DNA from: Clostridiisalibacter paucivorans DSM 22131
GTDB taxonomy: Bacteria; Bacillota; Clostridia; Tissierellales; Clostridiisalibacteraceae
Reading direction: 5' to 3'
Length of the DNA stretch: 41,248 nucleotides
Assembly: GCF_000620125.1 (NCBI RefSeq)
Contig: NZ_JHVL01000032.1
Coordinates: 1-41,248, forward strand
In this document: positions 10,402-41,248 of the stretch, piece after piece
How the letters are laid out: every line of letters begins with the position of its first letter
Numbering within the stretch: position 1 is the first letter of the stretch
The notes under the pieces: generated by a model
The model's input: the letters and a program-made list of their open reading frames with translations, nothing else
Databases searched by the model: none
Told to the model about the DNA's origin: nothing
Made by a program: the position numbers and the translations under genes

Positions 10402-10446
10402 ACGCATTGTGCGTCTTTTATTTATATGTTATAACGCATTGTGCGT
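10402..10446 (+). promoter_or_regulatory. Twin operator dyads and promoter of the XRE repressor
   Basis: The dyad ACGCATTGTGCGT (5-bp arms, 3-base centre) occurs at 10402-10414 and again at 10434-10446, 32 bp apart, about three helical turns. A -35-like TTGTGC inside the first dyad and TTATAA next to the second (16-base gap) place the promoter within the pair. The layout fits autorepression by the helix-turn-helix gene that follows. A diverged copy of the whole arrangement lies at 15095-15142. Confidence 0.75.
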
Positions 10447-10465
10447 AAAGTCAAGGAGTTTTTTT

Positions 10466-10699
10466 ATGTTTTCAAGAGAAATATTTTCTAAACGAGTTAA
10501 AATGTTGAGATTATCTCACAATCTTAGTCAAATTGAGCTTGCAAAAATTGTTGGTTTTTCATACAGCAGTGCAATTGGAGACATTGAAAGAGGTAGGAGA
10601 ACAACTCCTATAGATAAAATAGTAGCATTGGCAGACTATTTTGATGTATCTGTTGATTACCTAATAGGTAGAACCGATAATCCAAAGCTCAATAAGTAA
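10466..10699 (+). CDS. XRE-family (HTH_3) transcriptional repressor
   Basis: A 77-residue single-domain DNA-binding protein of the Cro/CI type. It reads RVKMLRLSHNLSQIELAKIV then GFSYSSAIGDIERGRRTTPI and DKIVALADYFDVSVDYLIGR, the standard five-helix HTH_3 fold with the usual LADYFxVSxDYLxGR ending. ATG 10466 has AAGGAG seven bases upstream; the longer frame back to 10409 would run through the operators and is not the start. The two dyads directly upstream suggest it represses itself. Its distant targets may include the related dyads near kdd. Confidence 0.9.
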   Translation: MFSREIFSKRVKMLRLSHNLSQIELAKIVGFSYSSAIGDIERGRRTTPIDKIVALADYFDVSVDYLIGRTDNPKLNK

Positions 10700-15071: not shown

Positions 15072-15170
15072 TCACCACCTTTAAATAATTTTAAACGCAT
15101 TTTGCGTCATTGTCTATCTATATGATATAACGCATTTTGCGTTAAGTCAAGTAGTTTTTTATATTCAAAA
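15072..15170 (+). promoter_or_regulatory. Fossil copy of the XRE repressor promoter with twin dyads
   Basis: ACGCATTTTGCGT occurs at 15095-15107 and 15130-15142. The surroundings match 10378-10470 base for base in long stretches: GTCACCACCTTT on the left, TATATGATATAACGCATT between, and AAGTCAAGTAGTTTTTTAT on the right. Here the ribosome site AAGGAG has become AAGTAG and the ATG has become ATA, and no helix-turn-helix gene follows. The dyads themselves are intact, so the repressor at 10466 may still bind here. Confidence 0.7.
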
Positions 15171-15207
15171 AAGAGAACTAACCTTTTTAACTTGGTTAAT
15201 TCTCTTT
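15171..15207 (-). terminator. Intrinsic terminator after the SSS symporter gene
   Basis: Arms at 15171-15183 and 15194-15206 (AAGAGAACTAACC with GGTTAATTCTCTT, one mismatch) lie just after the stop at 15217, and a T run follows on the minus strand. The hairpin abuts the fossil XRE promoter. Confidence 0.75.
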
Positions 15208-15216
15208 CATCTTCTT

Positions 15217-17193
15217 TTAAATAGTTACATAATCCCCATATTTTCTAATCATTGATTTCCCTAAATCAGTAATTTCTACTTTTCTTTTAAATAGTCCCTT
15301 TTCATTAATATAACCTCTACGATTTAAATGAGAAATCATACTAGACATTTGCAAAGAGGACATATTGTATTCCTTTGGAAATGATCCTATTTTTTCCTTT
15401 TCATTAAAGGTTATTTCTAAAAATTTAAGATATTTTTTATTTAGATAATCTTTAACCATTGCTAATTCCTTTTCATCTAATATTGGTAAAGCCTTCTCTC
15501 CCTTTTTAGTTATATTAAAAGTAAAAAATTTACTTCCTCTCAATCCTGCTCTTTCTATATATCCACCTTGGTCTAATTTTTCAATTGCTACATTTGATAT
15601 TCCAGAATCAACCTTTAGCCCATCACTTATATCTGCTAGATATTGATGTCCATTACGAATCATAACTAATACTTCAAGATCAAACTCATCTAATTTTCTT
15701 TCCACTCTATTGGATTTATTTGCTCTAATATCCCAATTAGGGTCTCCATAATACTTTGGTTTATCAGTGAAAGTTGCCAATATTCCTACAATTAAAGATA
15801 CTAGAAATCCAATAATAGCCATATGTGTCCACTTTCCTATTGCAAATATTCCTGTTAATTCAGTTATAGTTAAAATAACCATTGTTATCATACCTATAAG
15901 AACTCCCCAAAAAGCTCCTCTAGCATTAAATCTTGGCCAAAATGCCCCTAATAGCAACAATACAGCTGGTGGAGTTAGCCAAGCGTTTGCAAATGCAAAC
16001 AAATAAGTAGGTCCCCCTGGAAAGAAAGTCATTACCCATGTAACTATAATAATTAACCCCATTGTAAATTTACTGGCCCTCAATGTAGTCTCAGATGATG
16101 CTTTCTTATTTATCAGTCTTTTGTAAATATCCCTTGTGGCCATAGATGTTGCTCCCATTGCTGCCGTTGAAGATGTAGATAGAGCAGCAGCTGCAGCACC
16201 AACTATAAATAATGAACCTAATATTGGAGTAATTACAGTTGCAATCATTCCATAAGCAGCAGTTTGATCAGCACTTCCTCCAACTAAAGCAAATACCTCT
16301 GGCATAGTGACACCAGCATATATGCCGATTATAGATAAAGGTATCATAAATACAATTATTAGATATATTGTTCCAATAGTATATGATTTTCTTGCAATAC
16401 TTTCATTCCTACATGAAGAAATCTTTAACCAATAATAATTATTTCCCCATACCAAAGCAGTACCAAATAAAAGCATAAATGTTATAACACTTGGATATTT
16501 CATTGTCAAACCAGGTAATTGAGCCCCAGATAATCCAGTATTAAACCAGTTCCCCCCTAACCAAGTATTGAAGTATTCAAATCCTCCATACTTATTCATT
16601 AATATTAGAGTAAATATAGGAACAGCAATTGTACCAATGGTCACTTGAATAAAATCTGCCACTGATGTTGCCCATAGACCACTCATAGTTGCAAATATTA
16701 GAATAACTAAAAATGCAACTGCAGCAATTGCAATTGTCGACCAGCCGGTATATCCTGAAACAATAGCTGATAATGATGACACATTATTCGCTAATATACC
16801 ACACATACCAATAACAGATGTAACTGCCACAAGTCCTCTTACTTTGCCATTATATCTAATCTGAAAATACTCTGGAAGAGTCTGTGCTCCAGATCTTCTT
16901 ATAAAATTCGAAAATAAATTAGCATATAAAAATAATCCAAATATAGAATAGATTACACCCCATATTATGCCACCTCTAGCTCCATATAGAACAGAAAATC
17001 CAGGTGCTAAAGCTATACTTGTACCAGCAAATCCTATTGCAACAACGGCTACAGTGTTAATAGGAAAACTGATTTCTCTTCCTGCTAATATATAGTCATC
17101 TGAATCTGATACCCATTTTTTAGAGATTAGCCCAGAACCGACTAATAACCCAATAAATATAATCGCATATATAGCAAAGGTAATATTAACCAT
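15217..17193 (-). CDS. Sodium:solute symporter with two C-terminal winged-helix domains
   Basis: Residues 1-475 are a complete SSS transporter of about 13 segments, with the start DSDDYILAGREISFPINTVA, a SGLWATSVADFIQ block and AAAAALSTSSTAAMGATSMA (the Na+-site region). Usual family members end near residue 500. Here a linker leads to two wing-shaped modules. The first, 501-570, has ISDGL, then GISNVAIEKLDQGGYIERAG as recognition helix, and a wing ending FFTFNITKKGEKAL. The second, 573-652, has SSLQMSSMISHLNRRGYINE and wing KRKVEITDLGKSMI. Both look like MarR/PadR-type DNA-binding folds. ATG 17193 follows AGGAGG. It lies between the kce operon and kdd, so the substrate may feed that pathway. 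Confidence 0.88.
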   Translation of the reverse strand: MVNITFAIYAIIFIGLLVGSGLISKKWVSDSDDYILAGREISFPINTVAVVAIGFAGTSIALAPGFSVLYGARGGIIWGVIYSIFGLFLYANLFSNFIRRSGAQTLPEYFQIRYNGKVRGLVAVTSVIGMCGILANNVSSLSAIVSGYTGWSTIAIAAVAFLVILIFATMSGLWATSVADFIQVTIGTIAVPIFTLILMNKYGGFEYFNTWLGGNWFNTGLSGAQLPGLTMKYPSVITFMLLFGTALVWGNNYYWLKISSCRNESIARKSYTIGTIYLIIVFMIPLSIIGIYAGVTMPEVFALVGGSADQTAAYGMIATVITPILGSLFIVGAAAAALSTSSTAAMGATSMATRDIYKRLINKKASSETTLRASKFTMGLIIIVTWVMTFFPGGPTYLFAFANAWLTPPAVLLLLGAFWPRFNARGAFWGVLIGMITMVILTITELTGIFAIGKWTHMAIIGFLVSLIVGILATFTDKPKYYGDPNWDIRANKSNRVERKLDEFDLEVLVMIRNGHQYLADISDGLKVDSGISNVAIEKLDQGGYIERAGLRGSKFFTFNITKKGEKALPILDEKELAMVKDYLNKKYLKFLEITFNEKEKIGSFPKEYNMSSLQMSSMISHLNRRGYINEKGLFKRKVEITDLGKSMIRKYGDYVTI

Positions 17194-17299: not shown

Positions 17300-18070
17300 T
17301 TATTCTTCTACAAAAGCCACAGCCCGTATCCATCCAGCACTGGCCTTTTTTATTTTTATGGGAAAACAGAAAAATTTGCTCCCTATTATAGGTAAAGATT
17401 CTAAATTAGTTAATTTTTCTATATGACAATATGCCTTTTCTGCGCCAGCTCTATGGCCTTCCCATATGATACTTTTATCACCAGTTTTATCAAATTCTTC
17501 TGCTATTAATGGTAATGGTCTATCCCAGCTCCAAGCATCTGTTCCTACTACTCTGACCCCTTGATTGACAAGCCATAGAGTTGCAGCCTTACTCATTCCA
17601 CATCCAGAAGATAGGTATCTCTTGCTTCCCCAATACTTGCTAGCTCCAGTATTAACCAATACTATATCTCCAGCCTTTAATGTATATTGTATTTTATTGA
17701 AATATTCATCAAAATCTTCAGGTTCAACCTTATATCCGTCAGGCTTATCCCTAAAATCTACAACAACAGCAGACCCATAAAACCAATCTAAAGGTATTTC
17801 ATCTATTGTCCATGCCTCTTCACCTCCATTCATAGTTGGATAGTAATGATAAGGAGCATCAATATGAGTCCCTCCATGGGTAGAAACTTTAAGAAACTCA
17901 ACAGCCCATCCATTTCCTTCTGGAAGATCTTCTAATGTAGCATTCCCAAAGTACTCCAACATTTCTTCTGCTGTATCTTTATGGTTTCTATAGTCTATAT
18001 ATGGAATATAATCTGGTGGATCACTAGGTAATCCACTTTCTAATGCAATACTTAAATCTATAATTTTCAT
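17300..18070 (-). CDS. Cyclase-family metal-dependent hydrolase (kynurenine-formamidase-like fold)
   Basis: A 256-residue enzyme of the family that includes kynurenine formamidase KynB and isatin hydrolase, which hydrolyse amide or cyclic amide bonds with a divalent metal. It starts MKIIDLSIALESGLP. The metal-binding signature is THGGTHIDAPYHYYP (HxGTHxDxPxH), and GDIVLVNTGASKYWGSKRY and VVGTDAWSWDRP follow. ATG 18070 has AGGAGGATATAT upstream. It is the third gene after thiolase and kce, 16 bases from kce. Its presence in a lysine-type operon is unexpected; opening a lactam or cleaving an N-acyl group on an imported substrate is a guess. Confidence 0.8.
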   Translation of the reverse strand: MKIIDLSIALESGLPSDPPDYIPYIDYRNHKDTAEEMLEYFGNATLEDLPEGNGWAVEFLKVSTHGGTHIDAPYHYYPTMNGGEEAWTIDEIPLDWFYGSAVVVDFRDKPDGYKVEPEDFDEYFNKIQYTLKAGDIVLVNTGASKYWGSKRYLSSGCGMSKAATLWLVNQGVRVVGTDAWSWDRPLPLIAEEFDKTGDKSIIWEGHRAGAEKAYCHIEKLTNLESLPIIGSKFFCFPIKIKKASAGWIRAVAFVEE

Positions 18071-18086
18071 TATATATATCCTCCTC

Positions 18087-18905
18087 TTATTCTAATCCTA
18101 ATATTTCTCTTGTTTCATCTGGTGTAGCCACTTCATTTCCAACTTCCTTTATTATATTAGCAGCCCGCATCACAAATTGTTTGTTGGATCTTGCCAATTC
18201 TTTTTTATTAAATAGTATATTATCTTCCATACCAACTCTTATATGACCACCCAACGCTATAGTTGCTAGCATTATTGGAATATGAGTTTTTCCAATACCA
18301 AAAGCCGACCATGTAGAATTAGATGGCAACAATCCCTTCATAAAAACTAAGTTTTCTACAGTAGCTGCAATTCCCCCCGCTGCACCTAAAACAAATTGAT
18401 AGTGCAAAGGCTCTTTTAATATTCCTTTTTTTACATAATACTTGGCATTATAAATCATTCCTGGATCAAATATTTCAATTTCTGGTTTTATTCCATATTC
18501 ATTCATTGTTTTCCCTAATTCCTCTAAAAAAGATGGAGAATTTATAAACAAGGAATTATGTTGCCAGTTCATAGAACCACAATCATAAGATGCCATGTCA
18601 GGTCTAATTAATTTTAAATGTGATTGTCTTGTTTCATCTGTCGCATTTAGATCACCTGATGTGGTTAGATTAATTATAATATCACATTTATCTTTAATTA
18701 AATCTACTGTTTCTTTGAATCTCTCTTTGTCCATAGTACCTTGGCCCTTATCATCTCTCATATGCAGATGAGCAATAGATGCTCCTGCCTCATAGCATTG
18801 ATACACATCTTCAGCAATTTCTTTTGGTGTTAAAGGTATATTAGGATTGTCTTTTTTAGTTGGCCACGCACCAGTTGGTGCTACTGTTATAATTGTTTTT
18901 CCCAT
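18087..18905 (-). CDS. kce: 3-keto-5-aminohexanoate cleavage enzyme (Kce, BKACE family)
   Basis: It condenses 3-keto-5-aminohexanoate with acetyl-CoA to give acetoacetate and 3-aminobutyryl-CoA. Length is 272 residues, standard. The Zn site is visible: H46 and H48 in HLHMRD, and E227 in RVGMEDN; R223 and D228 in the same block match the catalytic Arg/Asp of characterised Kce. Glycine-rich LGAAGGIAATVENL also fits. BKACE enzymes differ in substrate, so the exact keto acid is uncertain, but kdd three genes away supports the lysine pathway. ATG 18905 follows GGAGGAAGTG, and the gene is 20 bases after the thiolase stop. Confidence 0.88.
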   Translation of the reverse strand: MGKTIITVAPTGAWPTKKDNPNIPLTPKEIAEDVYQCYEAGASIAHLHMRDDKGQGTMDKERFKETVDLIKDKCDIIINLTTSGDLNATDETRQSHLKLIRPDMASYDCGSMNWQHNSLFINSPSFLEELGKTMNEYGIKPEIEIFDPGMIYNAKYYVKKGILKEPLHYQFVLGAAGGIAATVENLVFMKGLLPSNSTWSAFGIGKTHIPIMLATIALGGHIRVGMEDNILFNKKELARSNKQFVMRAANIIKEVGNEVATPDETREILGLE

Positions 18906-18925: not shown

Positions 18926-20098
18926 TTAATCTCTTTCCAGCAGCATAGCTACGCCTTGCCCTCCTCCACAACAGAAGGTTATTAAGCCTAAATTAACATC
19001 TCTAAATTCCATCTCATAAACCATTTTTGTCGTCAATATAGCCCCAGTTCCAGCTAATGGATGTCCAAGAGCTATGGCCCCTCCATTAACATTTAATTTA
19101 TTCTCATTGATTTTAAGTTCTTTGATACATGCTAATGTTTGCGCTGCAAAGGCTTCATTTAATTCAATTAAATCAATATCTTCTAATTTTAGGCCTGTCT
19201 TTTCAAGTACCTTTTTAGTTGCAGGTACTGGTCCTATTCCCATTATATTTGGATCTACTCCTACAGCAGTAAATGCTTTATACCTTGCTAAAATCTCATA
19301 CCCCATAGCTTTAGCCAATTTTTCTTCCATCATAATCACAGCTCCTGCTCCATCACTCATTGGAGAACTATTCCCTGCTGTTACCACTCCATCTTGTTTA
19401 AACACTGATTTTAATTTAGCCATAGATTCCAAATTAGCATCATCTCTAATAGTCTCATCTTCATCAATTACAACCTTCTTGTCCCTGTCCAATTGTACTT
19501 CAATTGGTAATATCTGTTCCTTAAACTTCCCCTTTTTTCTTGCTAAGGAAGCTTTTTTATGACTATTAACAGAATAGATATCAAGTTCTTCTCTAGTAAG
19601 ACTGTACAATTGTGCCAAATTTTCTGCTGTAATACCCATACTAGGATTACCAATATGCTCTGGTGAAAGCCTTAATTTCCCATTAAATCTAGGTGGATTA
19701 ACAGAATAACCTATCTCAGGTTTCAGCATCACATAAGGTCTGCGTGAATCACTCTCTACTCCCCCAGCAATAATCACTTTAGCTTCTCCTAATTGAATCA
19801 TCATTGCTGCTAAAGCTATTGCATTAAGCGAAGTCCCACATTGCCTATCAACAGTAAGTGCTGGTATGTCTATTGGTAAGCCAGCTTCAAGAGAAACCAC
19901 TCTTGCAATATTGTTTACATCATGACCCATAAGATTACCAAATATAATCTCATCTACCATATCCAAACTTATACTAACTCTATTGATAACTTCTTTAACA
20001 ACTTCTGCCCCCATCTTATAAGGTTCTACTGATGCCAATACTCCCCTACATCTTCCCACTGGAGTACGCACAGCGGAAACAATAACTGCATTATTCAT
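18926..20098 (-). CDS. Thiolase (acetyl-CoA C-acetyltransferase type)
   Basis: It interconverts acetoacetyl-CoA and two acetyl-CoA, or a longer 3-ketoacyl-CoA equivalent. It has 390 residues from ATG 20098 (MNNAVIVSAVRTPVGRCRGV), preceded by AAGGAGG. The frame extends to 20128, but the sigma-54 transcription start predicted near 20130 and the ribosome site favour 20098. Catalytic residues are all present: nucleophile Cys in VDRQCGTSLNA, His in GGAIALGHPLAGTG, and the second Cys in FCCGGGQG. First gene of thiolase-kce-cyclase. It could dispose of acetoacetate released by Kce once that is activated to the CoA ester. Confidence 0.94.
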   Translation of the reverse strand: MNNAVIVSAVRTPVGRCRGVLASVEPYKMGAEVVKEVINRVSISLDMVDEIIFGNLMGHDVNNIARVVSLEAGLPIDIPALTVDRQCGTSLNAIALAAMMIQLGEAKVIIAGGVESDSRRPYVMLKPEIGYSVNPPRFNGKLRLSPEHIGNPSMGITAENLAQLYSLTREELDIYSVNSHKKASLARKKGKFKEQILPIEVQLDRDKKVVIDEDETIRDDANLESMAKLKSVFKQDGVVTAGNSSPMSDGAGAVIMMEEKLAKAMGYEILARYKAFTAVGVDPNIMGIGPVPATKKVLEKTGLKLEDIDLIELNEAFAAQTLACIKELKINENKLNVNGGAIALGHPLAGTGAILTTKMVYEMEFRDVNLGLITFCCGGGQGVAMLLERD

Positions 20099-20140
20099 AC
20101 TAACCTCCTTCTGTAAATTTATTTTCATTTATTTAATATT

Positions 20141-20155
20141 GCAAAACTTATGCCA
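20141..20155 (-). promoter_or_regulatory. Sigma-54 (-24/-12) promoter of the thiolase-kce operon
   Basis: The minus strand reads TGGCATAAGTTTTGC followed by A, a full match to TGGCAYRNNNNTTGCA. It lies 43 bases before the thiolase ATG, giving a leader of about 30 bases. The sigma-54 activator gene is directly upstream. Confidence 0.87.
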
Positions 20156-20172: not shown

Positions 20173-20215
20173 TAAGCTTAGAGTTCTAGGCTTTATACCT
20201 ATATATCTAAGCTTA
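20173..20215. repeat. Hairpin with symmetric internal loop between UAS and promoter
   Basis: TAAGCTTAGA (20173-20182) pairs with TCTAAGCTTA (20206-20215). Inside, TAGG (20187-20190) pairs with CCTA (20198-20201), leaving a 4 by 4 internal loop. It sits between the putative activator site and the -24 element, where DNA bending or looping takes place. Confidence 0.5.
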
Positions 20216-20224
20216 CAAAAACAA

Positions 20225-20250
20225 AATGTGTAACTATATGTTTACACATT
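20225..20250 (-). promoter_or_regulatory. Putative upstream activator site for the sigma-54 regulator
   Basis: Nine-bp inverted arms AATGTGTAA (20225-20233) and TTACACATT (20242-20250) are separated by eight bases and centred about 108 bp upstream of the predicted start. This is the usual distance for an enhancer-binding protein site. The same GTGTAAA/TTTACAC words recur in the terminator stem at 20296-20339. Confidence 0.55.
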
Positions 20251-20295: not shown

Positions 20296-20339
20296 TAAAG
20301 TGTAAACAATAGTTTGCGCAAACTATCATTTACACTTTA
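20296..20339 (-). terminator. Terminator of the PAS sigma-54 activator at 20337
   Basis: A 22-bp dyad centred at 20317/20318 with a 2-bp interior mismatch overlaps the stop codon (20337-20339). The long stem supports termination, although the downstream stretch is only moderately T-rich. Its GTGTAAA and TTTACAC arms resemble the nearby activator site and could double as a second binding site. Confidence 0.65.
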
Positions 20340-21746
20340 TAATTTATCTAACTCATACTTTTTTATTTTTTTATATAAAAGAGTCCTAGATATTCCAAGA
20401 GTTTTAGCTGCCCGTGTCTTATTTTGATTGCAATCTCTAAGGACCTTAATTATTGTTTCCTTTTCTAAATCCTCCTTGATATCTTTTAGCAATAATTTAT
20501 TTTTCTTTTGCCCTTTACAACTCTTAACAGTTTTTTTCTTTTCAAAATAATCACAAAAATGACTCCATGATAGAGATTCTCCCCACGACTTATTCATTGC
20601 TCTTTCCAATACATTTTGAAGTTCCCTTATATTTCCTGGCCAATTGTATTCTAATCCCATTAATCTAGTTTTTGCTTCATCAGATATTCCAATTACACTC
20701 ATTCCAAGCTGAAAATTTAATTTGTCTAATAAATTATCCATTATTAGAGGGATATCTTCTTTTCTCTTTCTAAGAGGTGGTATAGTAATTTTTAATACAT
20801 TAAGCCTATAAAAAAGATCCATTCTAAATTTATTTTTCGCCACTAATTTATCTAAATTTGCATTTGAAGCTGCAATAATTCTAACATCTACAGGTATAGA
20901 TTTTCCTCCTCCTACTCTTTCTATTTCCCTTTCTTGTAATGCTCTTAATAGTTTAGGTTGTAAAGATAAAGGCATTTGATTAATTTCATCAAAAAATAGG
21001 CTACCTCCATTGGCCATTTCAAATCTTCCCTCTTTACCACCTTTTTTAGCTCCTGTAAAAGCCCCTTCTTCATATCCAAAAAACTCCGATTCTAAAAGCT
21101 CACTAGGTATAGCTGCACAATTCACTTTAATAAAAGGTTGAGAATATCTATTACTCAAATCATGTATGGCATGAGCAACTAATTCCTTTCCAGTACCTGT
21201 TTCTCCTTCTATTAATACACTAGAATTTGATCTAGCAGCATTGACTATTAATTTTTTCATATTTTTTATCTTTACACTATCTCCTATAATATTATCAATT
21301 GTATAATCTGCTCCCCTGATTTTTCTTAATTCCTCTTGATAATATTCAATTCTACTAGCCATACTATTTACTTTAAAAGAAAAATCTATTGCTTCTTCCA
21401 TTCCTTTGAATATAACATGTATAAATCCAGCTACCACTTTACCATCCTTCATAATTGGCAGATAGGTCGAAAAAGCCTTTATTTTTGAAGGGCCTTTAGT
21501 TATAATTACATGTCCTGTTACAGATTTTTTTGTCTTTAAAACATAATCAATTTTTGTATCTGGAATAAAGTCTCGAACAGGCTTCCCTTTTATATCTCTT
21601 AGCTTTATATTTCCCATCATCTTTGACCATTTGTCATTCACATATAAATATCTCCCCTTAGAATCCGTTATGACAACTCCATCTAAATGCTCTATGATTA
21701 ATTTAAATACATCTAAGTTAATATCTTCAAAATCACTATTAGTCAT
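20337..21746 (-). CDS. Sigma-54-dependent activator with PAS domain, likely regulator of the thiolase-kce operon
   Basis: A 469-residue enhancer-binding protein. A PAS domain (about 10-120) starts DVFKLIIEHLDGVVITDSKG. The AAA+ domain (about 150-385) has Walker A GETGTGKE, a canonical GAFTGA loop and Walker B GGSLFFDEIN. The Fis helix-turn-helix at the end is NKTRAAKTLGISRTLLYKKI. ATG 21746 follows AAGGGGG. It lies immediately upstream of a sigma-54 promoter and shares its strand, which is the standard arrangement for a local activator of amino-acid catabolism. The PAS ligand is unknown. An ISLre2-type element sits about 170 bases upstream and may have altered its own promoter. Confidence 0.93.
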   Translation of the reverse strand: MTNSDFEDINLDVFKLIIEHLDGVVITDSKGRYLYVNDKWSKMMGNIKLRDIKGKPVRDFIPDTKIDYVLKTKKSVTGHVIITKGPSKIKAFSTYLPIMKDGKVVAGFIHVIFKGMEEAIDFSFKVNSMASRIEYYQEELRKIRGADYTIDNIIGDSVKIKNMKKLIVNAARSNSSVLIEGETGTGKELVAHAIHDLSNRYSQPFIKVNCAAIPSELLESEFFGYEEGAFTGAKKGGKEGRFEMANGGSLFFDEINQMPLSLQPKLLRALQEREIERVGGGKSIPVDVRIIAASNANLDKLVAKNKFRMDLFYRLNVLKITIPPLRKRKEDIPLIMDNLLDKLNFQLGMSVIGISDEAKTRLMGLEYNWPGNIRELQNVLERAMNKSWGESLSWSHFCDYFEKKKTVKSCKGQKKNKLLLKDIKEDLEKETIIKVLRDCNQNKTRAAKTLGISRTLLYKKIKKYELDKL

Positions 21747-21912: not shown

Positions 21913-23464
21913 GATAGTGTCAAGTTACTGTAGGTTTTTATGAAATAGAGATTCCCCACATCATTATGAAGTTAAGCTCCAGTCATAGACTTAAGCAATT
22001 CTGATAGCCAAGTCCTTTTACCATTATTTAAAATTGTTATATTATTTATTTTTTCATTTGTAGATTTATTAACTGTTTTTTGTATGCTTTGTTTGCTTAA
22101 TTTACTTAATCTTAATTCCTTTTGTTCTTCTTTTCACTTGTTAATGATTAAATCATATACATCTCCACCATTAGCTTTAAATACTCTAAGTCTAGACATT
22201 TGATCTACACCTGTTTTGCTCCAAGCTCGTGGTCTAGAGCTTAGCCTATCGGCTAATATATGGCTTATATGACCTTCAGCACTGCAACCTATATAATCCT
22301 TATTATACTGATTTTTTATACCTTCCCATTGGTTCATTATATATCTTCTAGAATCTTTTATTGCATTTATTTTTGTTTGTAACTTAGTTTCTTCAATGAT
22401 AACTCTAAATAAATCAAGTACACTTTTTTTATCTAATTTATTTATATAATGCCACATAATAGGTGTTGTATAAGGTAAGTGAGCTGTGGCTATCTTTATA
22501 TATTTAGATAAATGAAATCTATCTAGTACAAAGATACTTCCTTTAATCCATCCTACACCATTCTTTATCCACTTAGCTCCATCTCCTGATAAATAGATTT
22601 TCTCTATTTTTTCCATGTCATAAGCTTCTTCTAAATAATTGGCTACTTCTATCCATAAATCAGCACTATGAGAATAAACACCACTAAAATACCTTACATT
22701 TTGAAGTCTATATCTATCTTTATTAACAGCTTTTTTACCTTCATGCACATATACTAACTTTGGCTCAATATTTTTTCCAGATTGAAGTGCTACATGATCC
22801 TCATCAGCTTCAATATATAAAGTTTTAACTACTTTCTTTTTTTCAGTTATCTTAACACTATCATTTGGTATATCTCCTAGCTCTCTAATAGTATTCATGA
22901 CTGTTTGATTAGTTAGATCAATAGAGTCAACAGCTATTTGACCACTTTTTCTATAAGAAGATTCTATGGCTTCATCCACAAGCTTCGCTTTTAAAGAAGA
23001 ATCTAATCTATCATGTATATCTATTCCCAATCTTTGATCTGATAAATATTTATATTCACCAGTTTTCTTATTTTTATAGTAGGTTCTTTTATAATTAACT
23101 TCACCAAATATTGTAGCTATAGTTTTTCTGTCTGCTTTTCTCTGAACAGTCCATTTTTCTTTTCTTAAATTATCCTGTTTTACTAAAGAATCCACTGTTT
23201 CCAACGCTTTTTGTACTATCTGTACGCCTATATCATCAAGTATTTTTTCAGTATTTAAAATAAATTCCGATATATCTTTATGGTTTGCCAAAGTATTAAT
23301 TAAATTTTCTTTTGTTTCATTGATGATTTTTTGTGAAATTTCATGTATAATAGTTTCCAAGAGAGTTCCTCCTTTGATGTTGGTTTTGGCACTTACATCA
23401 TAACATATGGAGGAACTTTCTTTTTTATTTTTTGAAATTTTACCTACAATAATTTTACTCTAAG
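21913..23464 (-). mobile_element. ISLre2-family insertion sequence, 1552 bp
   Basis: The element is bounded by 23-bp imperfect inverted ends: GATAGTGTCAAGTTACTGTAG at the left and the complement of the right end, CTTAGAGTAAAATTATTGTAG, each followed by GT. They agree at 17 of 23 positions and share TGTAGGT. It is flanked by a 9-bp duplication, so the boundaries are firm. The single gene inside is an ISLre2-type transposase with one nonsense codon. Confidence 0.85.
21972..23360 (-). pseudogene. ISLre2-family transposase interrupted by one TGA codon
   Basis: The frame starts at TTG 23360, seven bases after AAAGGAGG, and reads METIIHEISQKIINETKENL. It has the family's typical blocks YLSGDGAKWIKNGVGWI, FVLDRFHLSKY and SAEGHISHILADRLSSRPRA. 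At 22134-22136 the frame meets TGA after DLIINK. It then continues in the same frame with KEEQKELRLSKLSKQSIQK, a normal family C terminus, to TAA 21972-21974 (462 codons in all). A single point mutation has removed the last 50 or so residues, so the product is probably inactive or altered. Confidence 0.85.
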
Positions 23465-32509: not shown

Positions 32510-34669
32510 TTAATCTGAAAGATTAGCCTTTAATGTTTCAATCTGTTCATCTGTCATACCACCTGACACAAGATAGTCGTATGCAGCTGCCGCTAAATCT
32601 ATATTATCTAAATCCTCAGTATTTCCAATAACCTTAAGCATCGACAATACATCTTGAGAAATCAACTTATACTGATCAGTTCCTTCTTTAACTCCATAAT
32701 AATTAATATAGCTTTGCATATAGTCTTCAACAATCTCATCCTTAGATGCACCCATCAAAGATTCAATCAATGCTGCAAAAAAACCTGCACGATCTTTGCC
32801 TTCAGTACAATGGAAGATATAAGGTGCCTTATTCTCTGACATAAACACAAGACCTTTAACAACATTTGCCTTAAACTCATCATTGGCATATGCAATGCTC
32901 ATATTCAAAGGCAATACATTGTTATTTTTGTAAAGCTTTGCATAATATGGAGAGGCAAAATCATCTGCTGCTAGATAAGTATTAATATTGTCATCTGAAT
33001 CCGCAAGATTAACAACTGTATTTACATTGGCTTTCTTCATAAGTTTATCAGAATAAGAAGCACGACCAAGCTCATTATTTATTGGGCTTGAACTACGGTA
33101 AAGTACCCCTTTGGCTATATCACCTACAGTAATATTACGGAAATTAGCAAACACCTCATCAGAAGAATACTCTTCACGATTATTTGTACGCTCTAATTTA
33201 CGAATCTCATATTGAAGAAGATAATCTCCAGGATCAGTAAGCATAATAGTTGCCTTATCCCCAACTTCCACATTAGCAACCTCGTTTAACTTTCCATAGT
33301 TTATACAAACTGCAATATTAGTATGTCCTGGATAAGCACGCACTAGTGGACTACCATTGTCTACATAGTAGCCATCTAAAAATGGTGCTTCAAGTACAAA
33401 ACCATTATCAAATATAGCTGTTACCATATCACCTTTTTCAAAACCTAATTTATAGAAATCTTCAATCAAAATATCTGTTGATGCATGGCCATATTTTTCT
33501 ATTTCAGTAACTTTAGCTTCTACATTTGGAGTCTTATACATAGAATCAGCGGAAAGCTTAGTCTTAAGAACTGTAATCTCATCGGAAGTCATACCTATTG
33601 TTTCTAAATAATTTTCTGCAGCTTCTGCAAGGTCAACATCTGAGATGTCAGTTCCCTTTTCATATCCACAGACAATTGTAGTCAATGAGGATATGATATT
33701 ACTATTTGCTATTGATGTATATTGTTCGCTGTCTTTTTCAACTTTATAATAGTTTTCGTAGGTAGTCATATAATCATCCACTACTTCATCAAGCTCTGCA
33801 CCCATAAGAGATTCTAATAAAGCACTCACAAACCCTGCACGGTCTTTCCCCTCTGTACAATGAATAAGGTATGGTCCCTCATTCTTACTTAGGAATCGTA
33901 GTCCGTCGGCTAATTTTGTTCCAAAATCCTCTCCTGCAATATCAACACCCATATCCAAGTACTTTACCTTCCCTGTATCATAAAGTGATTTGTAATAATC
34001 AGAGGTAAAATCATCTGATGCAATATAACCTTCAATTTCTTCTTGAGAATCAGCCAAATTTAATACTGTCTGTACTCCTACCGCCTCAGCTAATGCATCG
34101 GAATAAGCTGCACGGCCTAATTCATTATTTATAGGACTGCTACTCCTATATAGAACAGCTGGTTTGATTCCAGTAGTGGCAATACTACGGAAATTTGCAA
34201 ATATTGAATCTGCTGTATAGTCAGAACGTAGATTGGTTCGTTCCAATTGATGAAGCAGGTATTCTGAAAGATAACCTTCTTTTTCTAATAGGGAAAATGT
34301 TACCTCATCACCCACTTCTGCATTGTATGTAGTAGAAAAATTACCCATATTGATTGCAACAACCAACAAATTTTCTTCCTGGTCATCACGTACAACAAGA
34401 CTTCCTGTGTCTACATCACTATAGGATGTACAGAAAGGTATTTCAAGTACATTATCTCCAACTGTAACCTTTAGCATATCACCTAATTCATAACCCGCAT
34501 CATATAGAGCATCAGGTTTAACATCCATTGTAAGATTACCATACTTTTGTACCTCTACAACGGTCCCCAATACATCATCATAAGTATCTACCGCATTAGC
34601 AGCAATAGGCAGTGAAAATGCCATGGCTAAAACCAAAAGCAATGAAATAATTCTCTTTACCTGTCTCAT
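32510..34669 (-). CDS. Secreted tandem tyrosine-phosphatase-like protein (two repeats)
   Basis: A 719-residue exported protein from ATG 34669 (MRQVKRIISLLLVLAMAFSL), six bases after AAAGGAGGAG; the open frame above it has no ribosome site. Signal peptide cleavage is likely after ANA. The rest is a duplication. Each half has a beta-rich N-terminal domain (VEVQKYGNLTMDV / TEIEKYGHASTDI) and a tyrosine/serine phosphatase domain with VLYRSSSPINNELGRA and the active-site loop HCTEGKDRAGF (Cys-x5-Arg). Both Cys and Arg are kept in both halves, so both sites may be active. Such secreted phosphatases resemble Tyr_phosphatase3/LipA-type enzymes that act on phosphotyrosine or phosphoinositides. The target is unknown. 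Confidence 0.87.
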   Translation of the reverse strand: MRQVKRIISLLLVLAMAFSLPIAANAVDTYDDVLGTVVEVQKYGNLTMDVKPDALYDAGYELGDMLKVTVGDNVLEIPFCTSYSDVDTGSLVVRDDQEENLLVVAINMGNFSTTYNAEVGDEVTFSLLEKEGYLSEYLLHQLERTNLRSDYTADSIFANFRSIATTGIKPAVLYRSSSPINNELGRAAYSDALAEAVGVQTVLNLADSQEEIEGYIASDDFTSDYYKSLYDTGKVKYLDMGVDIAGEDFGTKLADGLRFLSKNEGPYLIHCTEGKDRAGFVSALLESLMGAELDEVVDDYMTTYENYYKVEKDSEQYTSIANSNIISSLTTIVCGYEKGTDISDVDLAEAAENYLETIGMTSDEITVLKTKLSADSMYKTPNVEAKVTEIEKYGHASTDILIEDFYKLGFEKGDMVTAIFDNGFVLEAPFLDGYYVDNGSPLVRAYPGHTNIAVCINYGKLNEVANVEVGDKATIMLTDPGDYLLQYEIRKLERTNNREEYSSDEVFANFRNITVGDIAKGVLYRSSSPINNELGRASYSDKLMKKANVNTVVNLADSDDNINTYLAADDFASPYYAKLYKNNNVLPLNMSIAYANDEFKANVVKGLVFMSENKAPYIFHCTEGKDRAGFFAALIESLMGASKDEIVEDYMQSYINYYGVKEGTDQYKLISQDVLSMLKVIGNTEDLDNIDLAAAAYDYLVSGGMTDEQIETLKANLSD

Positions 34670-34963
34670 ATTTCTCCTCCTTTTAATATTGTTTAATAAT
34701 CTCACCTGTACTAAAATATAAGGTTCGAGAGCCACTTATATTATACTATGTTTTCATTATTATTTCCATAATAGTCCAATAATTCCGATATTTATTCCCT
34801 CTCTTTATTACCCTTCTTATATATTCTAAAATTCAAAAGCAATGGCGGTTTTCATTTATGCCTCATAAAGTTTAAAAGTGAGCCTAACCCTATTTAATTA
34901 TTTTTTCTATAAAAATCTTAATTTATCTAAATAAATTCATATAAATATTATGGTATACTACCA
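34670..34963. other. Spacer upstream of feoA
   Basis: No gene is visible. It holds the third dispersed repeat (34865-34891) and, just before the Fur box, a -10-like TATACT (34954-34959) that would place the feoA transcription start inside the Fur site. No clear -35 element is seen. Confidence 0.5.
34865..34891 (+). repeat. Dispersed repeat copy 3 (GTGAGCCTAACCC type)
   Basis: AAAGTTTAAAAGTGAGCCTA then ACCCT. One substitution (G to A) separates its core from copy 1. Confidence 0.8.
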
Positions 34964-40688: not shown

Positions 40689-41248
40689 TTAATTAATAAA
40701 TTTTTTTAACTCTTCTACTTCAGATTTAGAAAGACCTGTAGCTTTTACTACTAAGGCTATCTCTGTACCTTCTTTTAAGAGATTCTTTGCTATTTCTTTA
40801 GCCTTATTAATTTCACCTTCTAGTCTTCCTTTTTGCATGCCTTTTTTCATGCCTTTTTGCATGCCTTCTTGCCTTCCTTTTTCTTCTCTTTTTTCTAATA
40901 TATTCATGGTAATAGCCCCCTTTCCTTCTAGTTTTTTTATTTGTTCTTTTATGTCTTCTTCTTTTATATCTCTGTTTGTTAGTTCTATATATTTTAAGTA
41001 TATTTCTCCATAATATATTAGTGTCTCTAGTGGTTCTTCTTTTTTTACTTCTTCTAATGCTAGTAAATATGTTCTTAATACTATTTCTAGATCTTCTTCA
41101 AAGGCATATTTAAATGCCTTTAGCATCATTGCTGTTAGTTTTGTTAGTTTTTCAAAATCTCTTTCTTCATATTCTCCTATGTTAAAAAAGTCATGCTTAA
41201 ATACTGGCACTCTTTGTTTAAAGTATTCTGGTAATTCATAAAATCCTG
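40689..41248 (-). CDS. Rpn family recombination-promoting nuclease/putative transposase, C-terminal part (5' end outside window)
   Basis: The frame is open to the right edge (GFYELPEYFKQRVPVFKHDF at its start), so the N-terminal nuclease domain is not seen. What remains is the helical middle part (YEERDFEKLTKLTAMMLKAF) and the charged tail with the repeat QEGMQKGMKKGMQKGRLEGE. This is characteristic of Rpn/PD-(D/E)XK transposase-like proteins common in Firmicutes. The end is a small helical hairpin (VVKATGLSKSEVEELKKF). An internal GTG at 41210 is not needed as a start. Confidence 0.8.
   Translation of the reverse strand, partial: GFYELPEYFKQRVPVFKHDFFNIGEYEERDFEKLTKLTAMMLKAFKYAFEEDLEIVLRTYLLALEEVKKEEPLETLIYYGEIYLKYIELTNRDIKEEDIKEQIKKLEGKGAITMNILEKREEKGRQEGMQKGMKKGMQKGRLEGEINKAKEIAKNLLKEGTEIALVVKATGLSKSEVEELKKFIN

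Follow-up and report, generated by a model that had tools for sequence, protein, structure and literature searches.

A sodium:solute symporter (SSS) normally ends soon after its last transmembrane helix. The locus studied here raises the question of why one such protein continues into two tandem winged helices, and whether this tail links uptake to gene control. The protein is encoded in the window, by which we mean the whole stretch of 41,248 nucleotides that was analysed (Clostridiisalibacter paucivorans DSM 22131, contig NZ_JHVL01000032.1). Its gene occupies 15217..17193 on the minus strand, with the ATG at 17193 and the stop at 15217 in the ORF list and translation, and encodes 658 aa; these are the limits that a preliminary description, made from the DNA letters, had given.

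The symporter and its tail

The transporter domain (residues 1-475; 15769..17193, minus strand) was delimited from Pfam, the full-length model and the alignment. The Pfam SSF family PF00474 matches residues 34-434 with E 1.6e-25 over profile positions 1-406 of 406, and TIGR00813 scores 114 bits in the NCBIfam scan, under its cut-off of 184. A full-length AlphaFold2 model (pLDDT 88.2, pTM 0.86) has the SLC5 fold, with SGLT2, NIS and SiaT as the top Foldseek matches and 13 TM helices by our own count on the predicted structure. The SSF match and the 13-helix model bear out the earlier view that the first part is a full SSS transporter. Within this domain A52, I53, G57, D180, S339 and T340 are invariant. 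Four of them, S339 and T340 in TM8 and A52 and I53 in TM1, were assigned to the Na2 site from what we take to be the corresponding positions in vSGLT and PutP; they are identical in 49/49 homologues, and the S339/T340 pair lines up with the S/T pair of vSGLT. The protein thus shares its core fold and its Na2-site residues with vSGLT, SiaT and PutP, and we infer that it is Na+-coupled. Ordinary SSS symporters differ from it in the tail: the tail-less relatives found here are at most 33% identical, and the tail HMM matched none of the 49 fetched loci with tail-less SSS genes (L007-L030 and L101-L125) at E 0.1. Two SSS genes lie in longer open frames, of 791 aa (L015, on G045:C44) and 873 aa (G016:C75:19974-21461), each with a stop inside; these frames are possibly other C-terminal fusions, and L015 gave no match to the tail HMM.

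The tail holds winged helix 1 (wH1, about residues 503-566; 15496..15687, minus strand) and winged helix 2 (wH2, about residues 586-658; 15220..15438, minus strand), both defined by Pfam, AlphaFold2 and VIA-align. When the last 169 aa were scanned alone, HTH_27 matched residues 505-565 (E 1e-5, 26.2 bits, cut-off 22.2) and HTH_45 matched residues 591-655 (E 2.4e-5, 24.7 bits, cut-off 25.5); both fall under their cut-offs when the whole 658-aa protein is scanned. An AlphaFold2 model of the tail, built with 49 aligned tails, is confident (pLDDT 92.9, pTM 0.88) and contains two H1-H2-H3-wing units. For wH1 the modelled elements are helices 503-513, 519-526 and 530-542 and a wing at 546-561; for wH2 they are helices 586-597, 599-608 and 613-625, a wing at 629-641 and a last helix at 643-657. 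In VIA-align, model residues ~15-88 and ~88-175 each fit 4yif, BpsR, YusO, MepR and MarR with Z 10-11, the two modules aligning separately to these MarR-type chains over 64-88 residues. Plain Foldseek on the tail was weak, with a best E of 5.4e-3, no structure matched at E 0.001 or below, and an rmsd above 8 in the long alignments. The ScoC structure 9fa0 covers model residues 16-146 in VIA-align at an rmsd of 6.1 and spans parts of both modules; among the matches listed, no single PDB chain spans both at low rmsd. Two winged helices, each with a recognition helix and a wing, had been read from the sequence in the preliminary description, which proposed a comparison with MarR folds; the prediction returns a winged-helix fold in both halves. 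Each module is predicted to share the winged-helix fold of MarR-family regulators; the tandem arrangement sets the tail apart from them, and the wing of wH1 is without what we take to be the MarR D-R-R signature. A comparison of wH1 with wH2 by hhalign gave 95.5% at E 1.5e-8 for this one pair, which is suggestive only of a duplication, because winged helices resemble one another.

Seven residues (D524, D529, L540, R548, S613, E631 and G633) are invariant in 49/49 tails. The net charge of wH2 is positive in 48/49 aligned sequences (mean +5.7), and that of wH1 averages -2.0 over the same 49. A basic face of wH2 is formed by residues 615, 622, 625 and 636-638, and K, R or H occupies 615 in 37/49 sequences, 622 in 48/49, 625 in 47/49, 636 in 48/49 and 637 in 48/49; these conserved basic positions sit on the recognition helix and the wing. 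The wing motif E-x-G-L-F/W-K/R-R is nearly constant across loci of all the regulator families described below. The basic face of wH1 is weaker: R548 is invariant, and positions 531, 539 and 555 are basic in 21/49, 30/49 and 24/49. Of the conserved acidic positions in wH1, several are common in MarR proteins too, so we draw little from them.

Positive-inside counts for the symporter are 16 in and 4 out, and the inside count exceeds the outside count in 49/49 homologues; because these counts favour the inside, and with the 13-TM model, the tail is predicted to lie on the cytoplasmic side. The full-length model further suggests that it is docked on the transporter, since the pTM of 0.86 is higher than expected if the tail, 27% of the residues, floated free; by our arithmetic a free tail of this size would hold pTM near or below 0.75-0.8.

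Distribution of the fusion and its split form

Our data set comprises 55 loci: 52 from a scan of genome contigs, the window, and two more genomes (L003 and L004). The tail is present in 54/54 loci that reach the tail region, the window included; L081 stops at a contig edge before the tail, and L057 stops at a contig edge after wH1. Two of the six search peptides of the contig scan lie in the tail, so this count leans to tail-bearing matches. The profile searches are free of that lean. Among 120 genomes, the organism's own included, one such search found five other relatives at 43-74% identity, all with the tail and one of them cut at its start; the remaining SSS matches are at most 33% identical over the matched stretch. 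A transporter-only query of 299 genomes of the phylum, again including its own, gave four non-self matches, which are 30-74% identical and carry the tail in every case; the 74% relative is split over two contigs, and other matches are at most 27% identical. Both winged-helix modules are thus kept in relatives down to 30% identity. Searched the other way, the tail HMM (E <= 1e-6) matched one of 291 genomes of the class, the window's own, and 6 of the 299 phylum genomes, that of the window among them; the rest are four symporter fusions, one of them over two contigs, and G585. The match in G585, like one in G029 from the search of 120 genomes, proved to be an ordinary single-domain regulator and was rejected as a tail module.

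When 111 transporter domains were placed on a tree, the sequences with the tail grouped in a single clade (SH-aLRT 100). The tree is transporter-only, made by a quick method and midpoint-rooted, and its software flags long branches that come together where the tail clade joins, which leaves the sister group unsure. By record titles the tail-bearing members span Clostridia, Bacilli and Spirochaetota, many of them MAGs, and the clade is spread over two phyla, Bacillota and Spirochaetota. The deep-branching G603 was the one member found among ten genomes of its class. A deep-branching symporter-winged-helix fusion, at L155:3089-12078, lies by molybdenum hydroxylase subunits, a UbiD decarboxylase and an aromatic-acid MFS transporter. 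An assembly or annotation artefact is ruled out, as isolates and MAGs from many genera carry the fusion too, and conservation together with the confident fold rules out run-off coding. The preliminary description had left conservation of the fusion to a homologue search, and conserved it is.

Papillibacter cinnamivorans provides a further view of the tail. Its second symporter copy (L153:9029-11068) stops at a TGA after 506 residues, and a detached tandem winged-helix protein of 161 aa begins 33 bp beyond that stop, preceded by AGAAGGAGG as its own ribosome-binding site; a second in-frame stop lies between the two genes. The tail HMM scores 119 bits on this detached protein, in which Pfam and NCBIfam found nothing, and its wH2 wing retains E, G and KR. 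Because Papillibacter encodes the tail separately with its own ribosome-binding site, we regard the tail as an independent module and not as run-off. The separate gene shows that the covalent tether is apparently not essential, and Papillibacter offers a natural comparison of one module with and without it. A cleavage enzyme adjoins the split pair; it comes near the 3,5-dioxohexanoate family, scoring 361 bits where the cut-off is 430.

Gene neighbourhood, pathway and candidate operators

Neighbours were counted within 9 kb of the 55 symporters by phmmer at E 1e-12. The counts are lower bounds, with 4 kb of upstream sequence at 40/55 loci and at least 1.5 kb downstream at 46/55, and near-identical pairs of loci were counted apart. 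The most frequent partner is a PF04199 cyclase (43/55; 17300..18070 in the window, minus strand). A KCE-like beta-keto-acid cleavage enzyme, under the KCE cut-off, occurs in 29/55 (18087..18905, minus), and a thiolase, the first gene of a probable operon, in 20/55 (18926..20128, minus). A sigma-54 activator lies within 9 kb in 29/55; the window's (20337..21746, minus) is PrdR-like, under the cut-off of that family, and is the probable regulator of the operon. Other neighbours are a CoA-transferase (11/55), a TrmB-like regulator (10/55), a MalT-like regulator (9/55), an FAH hydrolase (7/55) and a metallo-hydrolase (4/55). A TRAP membrane protein occurs near the symporter in 2/55 loci, and kdd and a TRAP binding protein in 1/55 each, both in the window alone. 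The partnership with kdd-TRAP suggested earlier is therefore not supported, 46/55 loci having at least 1.5 kb downstream in which it could appear; of the proposed constant proximity to kdd or kce, the kdd part fails and the cleavage enzyme stands as a neighbour in 29/55. A transposase-like ORF, identified by eye, occupies 22134-23360, with the activator gene on one side and an acyl-CoA dehydrogenase-like gene on the other.

Soluble regulator genes of three unrelated families (sigma-54 activator, TrmB-like, MalT-like) are nearby in 47/55 loci; seven of the eight loci without one have less than 4 kb of upstream sequence. The MalT-like gene is directly behind the transporter in 8/55 and overlaps it by at least 4 bp in six of these eight, with start codons chosen by script. 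In the Spirochaetota loci L073, L074, L076, L077, L078 and L079 the MalT-like gene overlaps the symporter 3' end, which may couple their translation.

A sigma-54-type promoter, TGGCATAAGTTTTGCA, lies upstream of the thiolase at 20140..20155 (minus strand, read 20155-20140). Such promoters, with a score of at least 10 of 11, are present within 3.6 kb upstream in 24/28 activator loci; the controls gave 0/28 for reversed sequences, 0/10 for TrmB-type loci and 0/8 for MalT-type loci. From the promoter and the pattern in activator loci, the symporter is therefore probably the last gene of a sigma-54-controlled operon of thiolase, cleavage enzyme, cyclase and symporter.

The preliminary description had also pointed to operator-like dyads near the gene as targets of the tail. 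The dyads exist; their ownership by the tail is not supported, as an XRE regulator, the sigma-54 activator and terminators fit them better. Exact copies of ACGCATTTTGCGT stand at 15095 and 15130, upstream of kdd, and those of a one-base variant, ACGCATTGTGCGT, at 10402 and 10434 by an XRE-like gene (10409-10699, named by eye). One further copy in the genome has one mismatch, and the paired ACGCATTKTGCGT dyads (10402-10446 and 15095-15142) are almost unique there. They are likely a local operator of the XRE protein, because they flank kdd-TRAP and the XRE-like gene. With exact copies only by kdd and the variant by the XRE gene, the 15.1-kb dyads were set aside as an operator for the tail. The inverted repeat followed by a T-rich stretch at 15170..15207 (minus) is probably the operon terminator, and the repeat at 20173-20215 probably terminates the activator gene. 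The dyad AATGTGTAA-N8-TTACACATT at 20225..20250 (no strand assigned), ~90 bp upstream of the promoter, is a probable activator site, and a 44-bp inverted repeat overlapping the end of the activator gene (20296..20339, no strand assigned) is a probable second one; TGTAAAC-N4-GTTTACA-like dyads stand at activator distance in several relatives, not all. Our dyad search of the window and genome found no operator near the symporter gene without another likely owner.

The enzymes beside the symporter point to a substrate that would be a cyclic beta-diketone, a lactone or a similar acid. Phloroglucinol degradation uses a cyclase (DPGC) and a cleavage enzyme (TAL), encoded in a PGR-DPGC-TfD-TAL cluster as described in PMC10470551, and the symporter loci likewise pair a cyclase with a beta-keto-acid cleavage enzyme. 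The two clusters differ in Eubacterium ramulus, where a cluster of that composition (SDR, hydroxyacyl-CoA dehydrogenase (HCDH), cyclase and cleavage enzyme (BKACE)) lies on another contig than the symporter cluster. The E. ramulus cyclase linked to the symporter shares 66% identity with that of the window, and the other two cyclases of this genome share 33-34%. In this one genome the separate contigs rule out that the symporter cluster is the phloroglucinol cluster. The symporter family also points to an uncharacterised cluster of catabolic genes, for a cyclase, a beta-keto-acid cleavage enzyme and a thiolase, whose gut carriers include Flavonifractor plautii and E. ramulus.

Possible roles of the tail and their precedents

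Among the matches listed in the literature searched, with subscription papers mostly outside its coverage, no description of an SSS-winged-helix fusion was found, and the design appears to be conserved and undescribed. The SLC5/STAC sensor kinases CbrA, MxtR, CrbS and RpuS (PMC7918813; PMC13022988) are the closest precedent in design, and CadC/ToxR the closest in output. The SLC5 transceptors that we found described carry kinases, and kinase fusions are what the review PMC7918813 mentions for SLC5 proteins. CbrA, an SLC5 transceptor, has its STAC domain docked against the transporter on the cytoplasmic side (preprint PMC13022988). The window protein resembles these kinases in joining an SSS transporter and a cytoplasmic tail in one chain, and differs in having two winged helices in place of STAC, PAS and kinase domains. 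Pfam and NCBIfam scans of it returned transporter and winged-helix families only, apart from weak chance-level matches; the STAC four-helix bundle is absent, with ~28 residues between the last TM helix and wH1 in the model, and histidine kinase domains are absent, as the ORF ends after wH2. At the Na2 site the window protein keeps a serine and a threonine, in contrast to the lysine of CbrA (PMC13022988). CadC is a winged-helix regulator bound to the membrane, and it is the full-length protein that binds DNA (PMC5936718). Like ToxR and CadC, the window protein attaches what we predict to be a cytoplasmic winged helix to a membrane protein; ToxR and CadC are bitopic proteins that sense in the periplasm and bind DNA through an N-terminal domain (PMC5936718), whereas here a whole transporter carries two C-terminal winged helices.

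Our first choice, a tentative one, is a single-chain transceptor with a docked tail in which wH2 is probably the DNA-binding output, and the transceptor reading of the preliminary description is to this extent plausible. The Na+-coupled symporter would import the substrate of the adjoining cyclase/beta-keto-acid-cleavage/thiolase pathway; the tandem winged-helix tail would pack against the transporter from the cytoplasmic side and track its conformational cycle. In this scheme wH1 is probably a docking or pseudo-dimer module, and wH2 would be the output, probably binding DNA once the state of the transporter frees it and tuning pathway expression on top of the dedicated soluble regulator. We favour the transceptor because it accounts for two confident MarR-type winged helices, a basic recognition helix and wing in wH2 and a cytoplasmic tail, and because the tail-bearing proteins form one clade in which every locus reaching the tail region has it, docking is suggested, and CbrA and CadC are precedents. 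Against the transceptor, most loci have a soluble regulator gene nearby, so that the tail need not be the sole regulator, a docked tail may leave wH2 occluded, the dyads near the gene all have other likely owners, the basic face of wH1 is weaker, and the separate Papillibacter tail suggests that the tether is dispensable. A bolder form is possible yet rather doubtful: the transporter itself would be a DNA-binding transcription factor, its 13-TM SLC5 cycle directly switching the tandem winged-helix unit with no kinase, second messenger or proteolysis, and with a detached subunit in one lineage. If they bind DNA, domains borne by the transporter would link uptake to gene control by a very short path, and the tail may let the transporter report its cargo to the pathway genes.

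A close second to the transceptor, and itself a somewhat doubtful possibility, is that the tail regulates transport within the molecule, docking on the transporter, sensing a metabolite or the energy state and gating the inward side by autoinhibition or feedback, all without DNA binding. It ranks so high because the wing is little changed by the regulator family, which points to a partner present everywhere, such as the transporter or membrane lipids, and because no unowned operator was found; the pTM of the full-length model suggests defined docking, and in Papillibacter the detached protein could act as a loosely attached subunit. Counting against it, most winged helices whose recognition helix and wing are basic bind DNA, and no ligand pocket was identified.

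Protein contact with the cognate soluble regulator, which the tail would sequester or activate so that transport controls the regulator, ranks third and is unlikely. The contact between MalK and MalT is reportedly a precedent, and regulator genes are indeed close by at most loci, the MalT-like gene in places directly behind the transporter. LysP-CadC (PMC5936718) is a second precedent. The regulators belong to three unrelated families, yet the surface of wH2 changes little. A passive fold for stability or assembly, with no regulatory role, would fit with the fact that structurally characterised SSS transporters function in the absence of any tail of this kind, but it is very improbable given the seven invariant tail residues and the presence of the tail at every locus reaching it, in two phyla.

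Elsewhere in the window, inspection by eye picked out two further ORFs. The one at 32510-34735 encodes 741 aa in two halves that resemble each other, both of them having a secretion-signal-like start and the phosphatase-like signature HCTEGKDRAGF, and the one at 40689-41210 carries EGMQKGMKKGMQKG repeats, like Rpn-type putative transposases.
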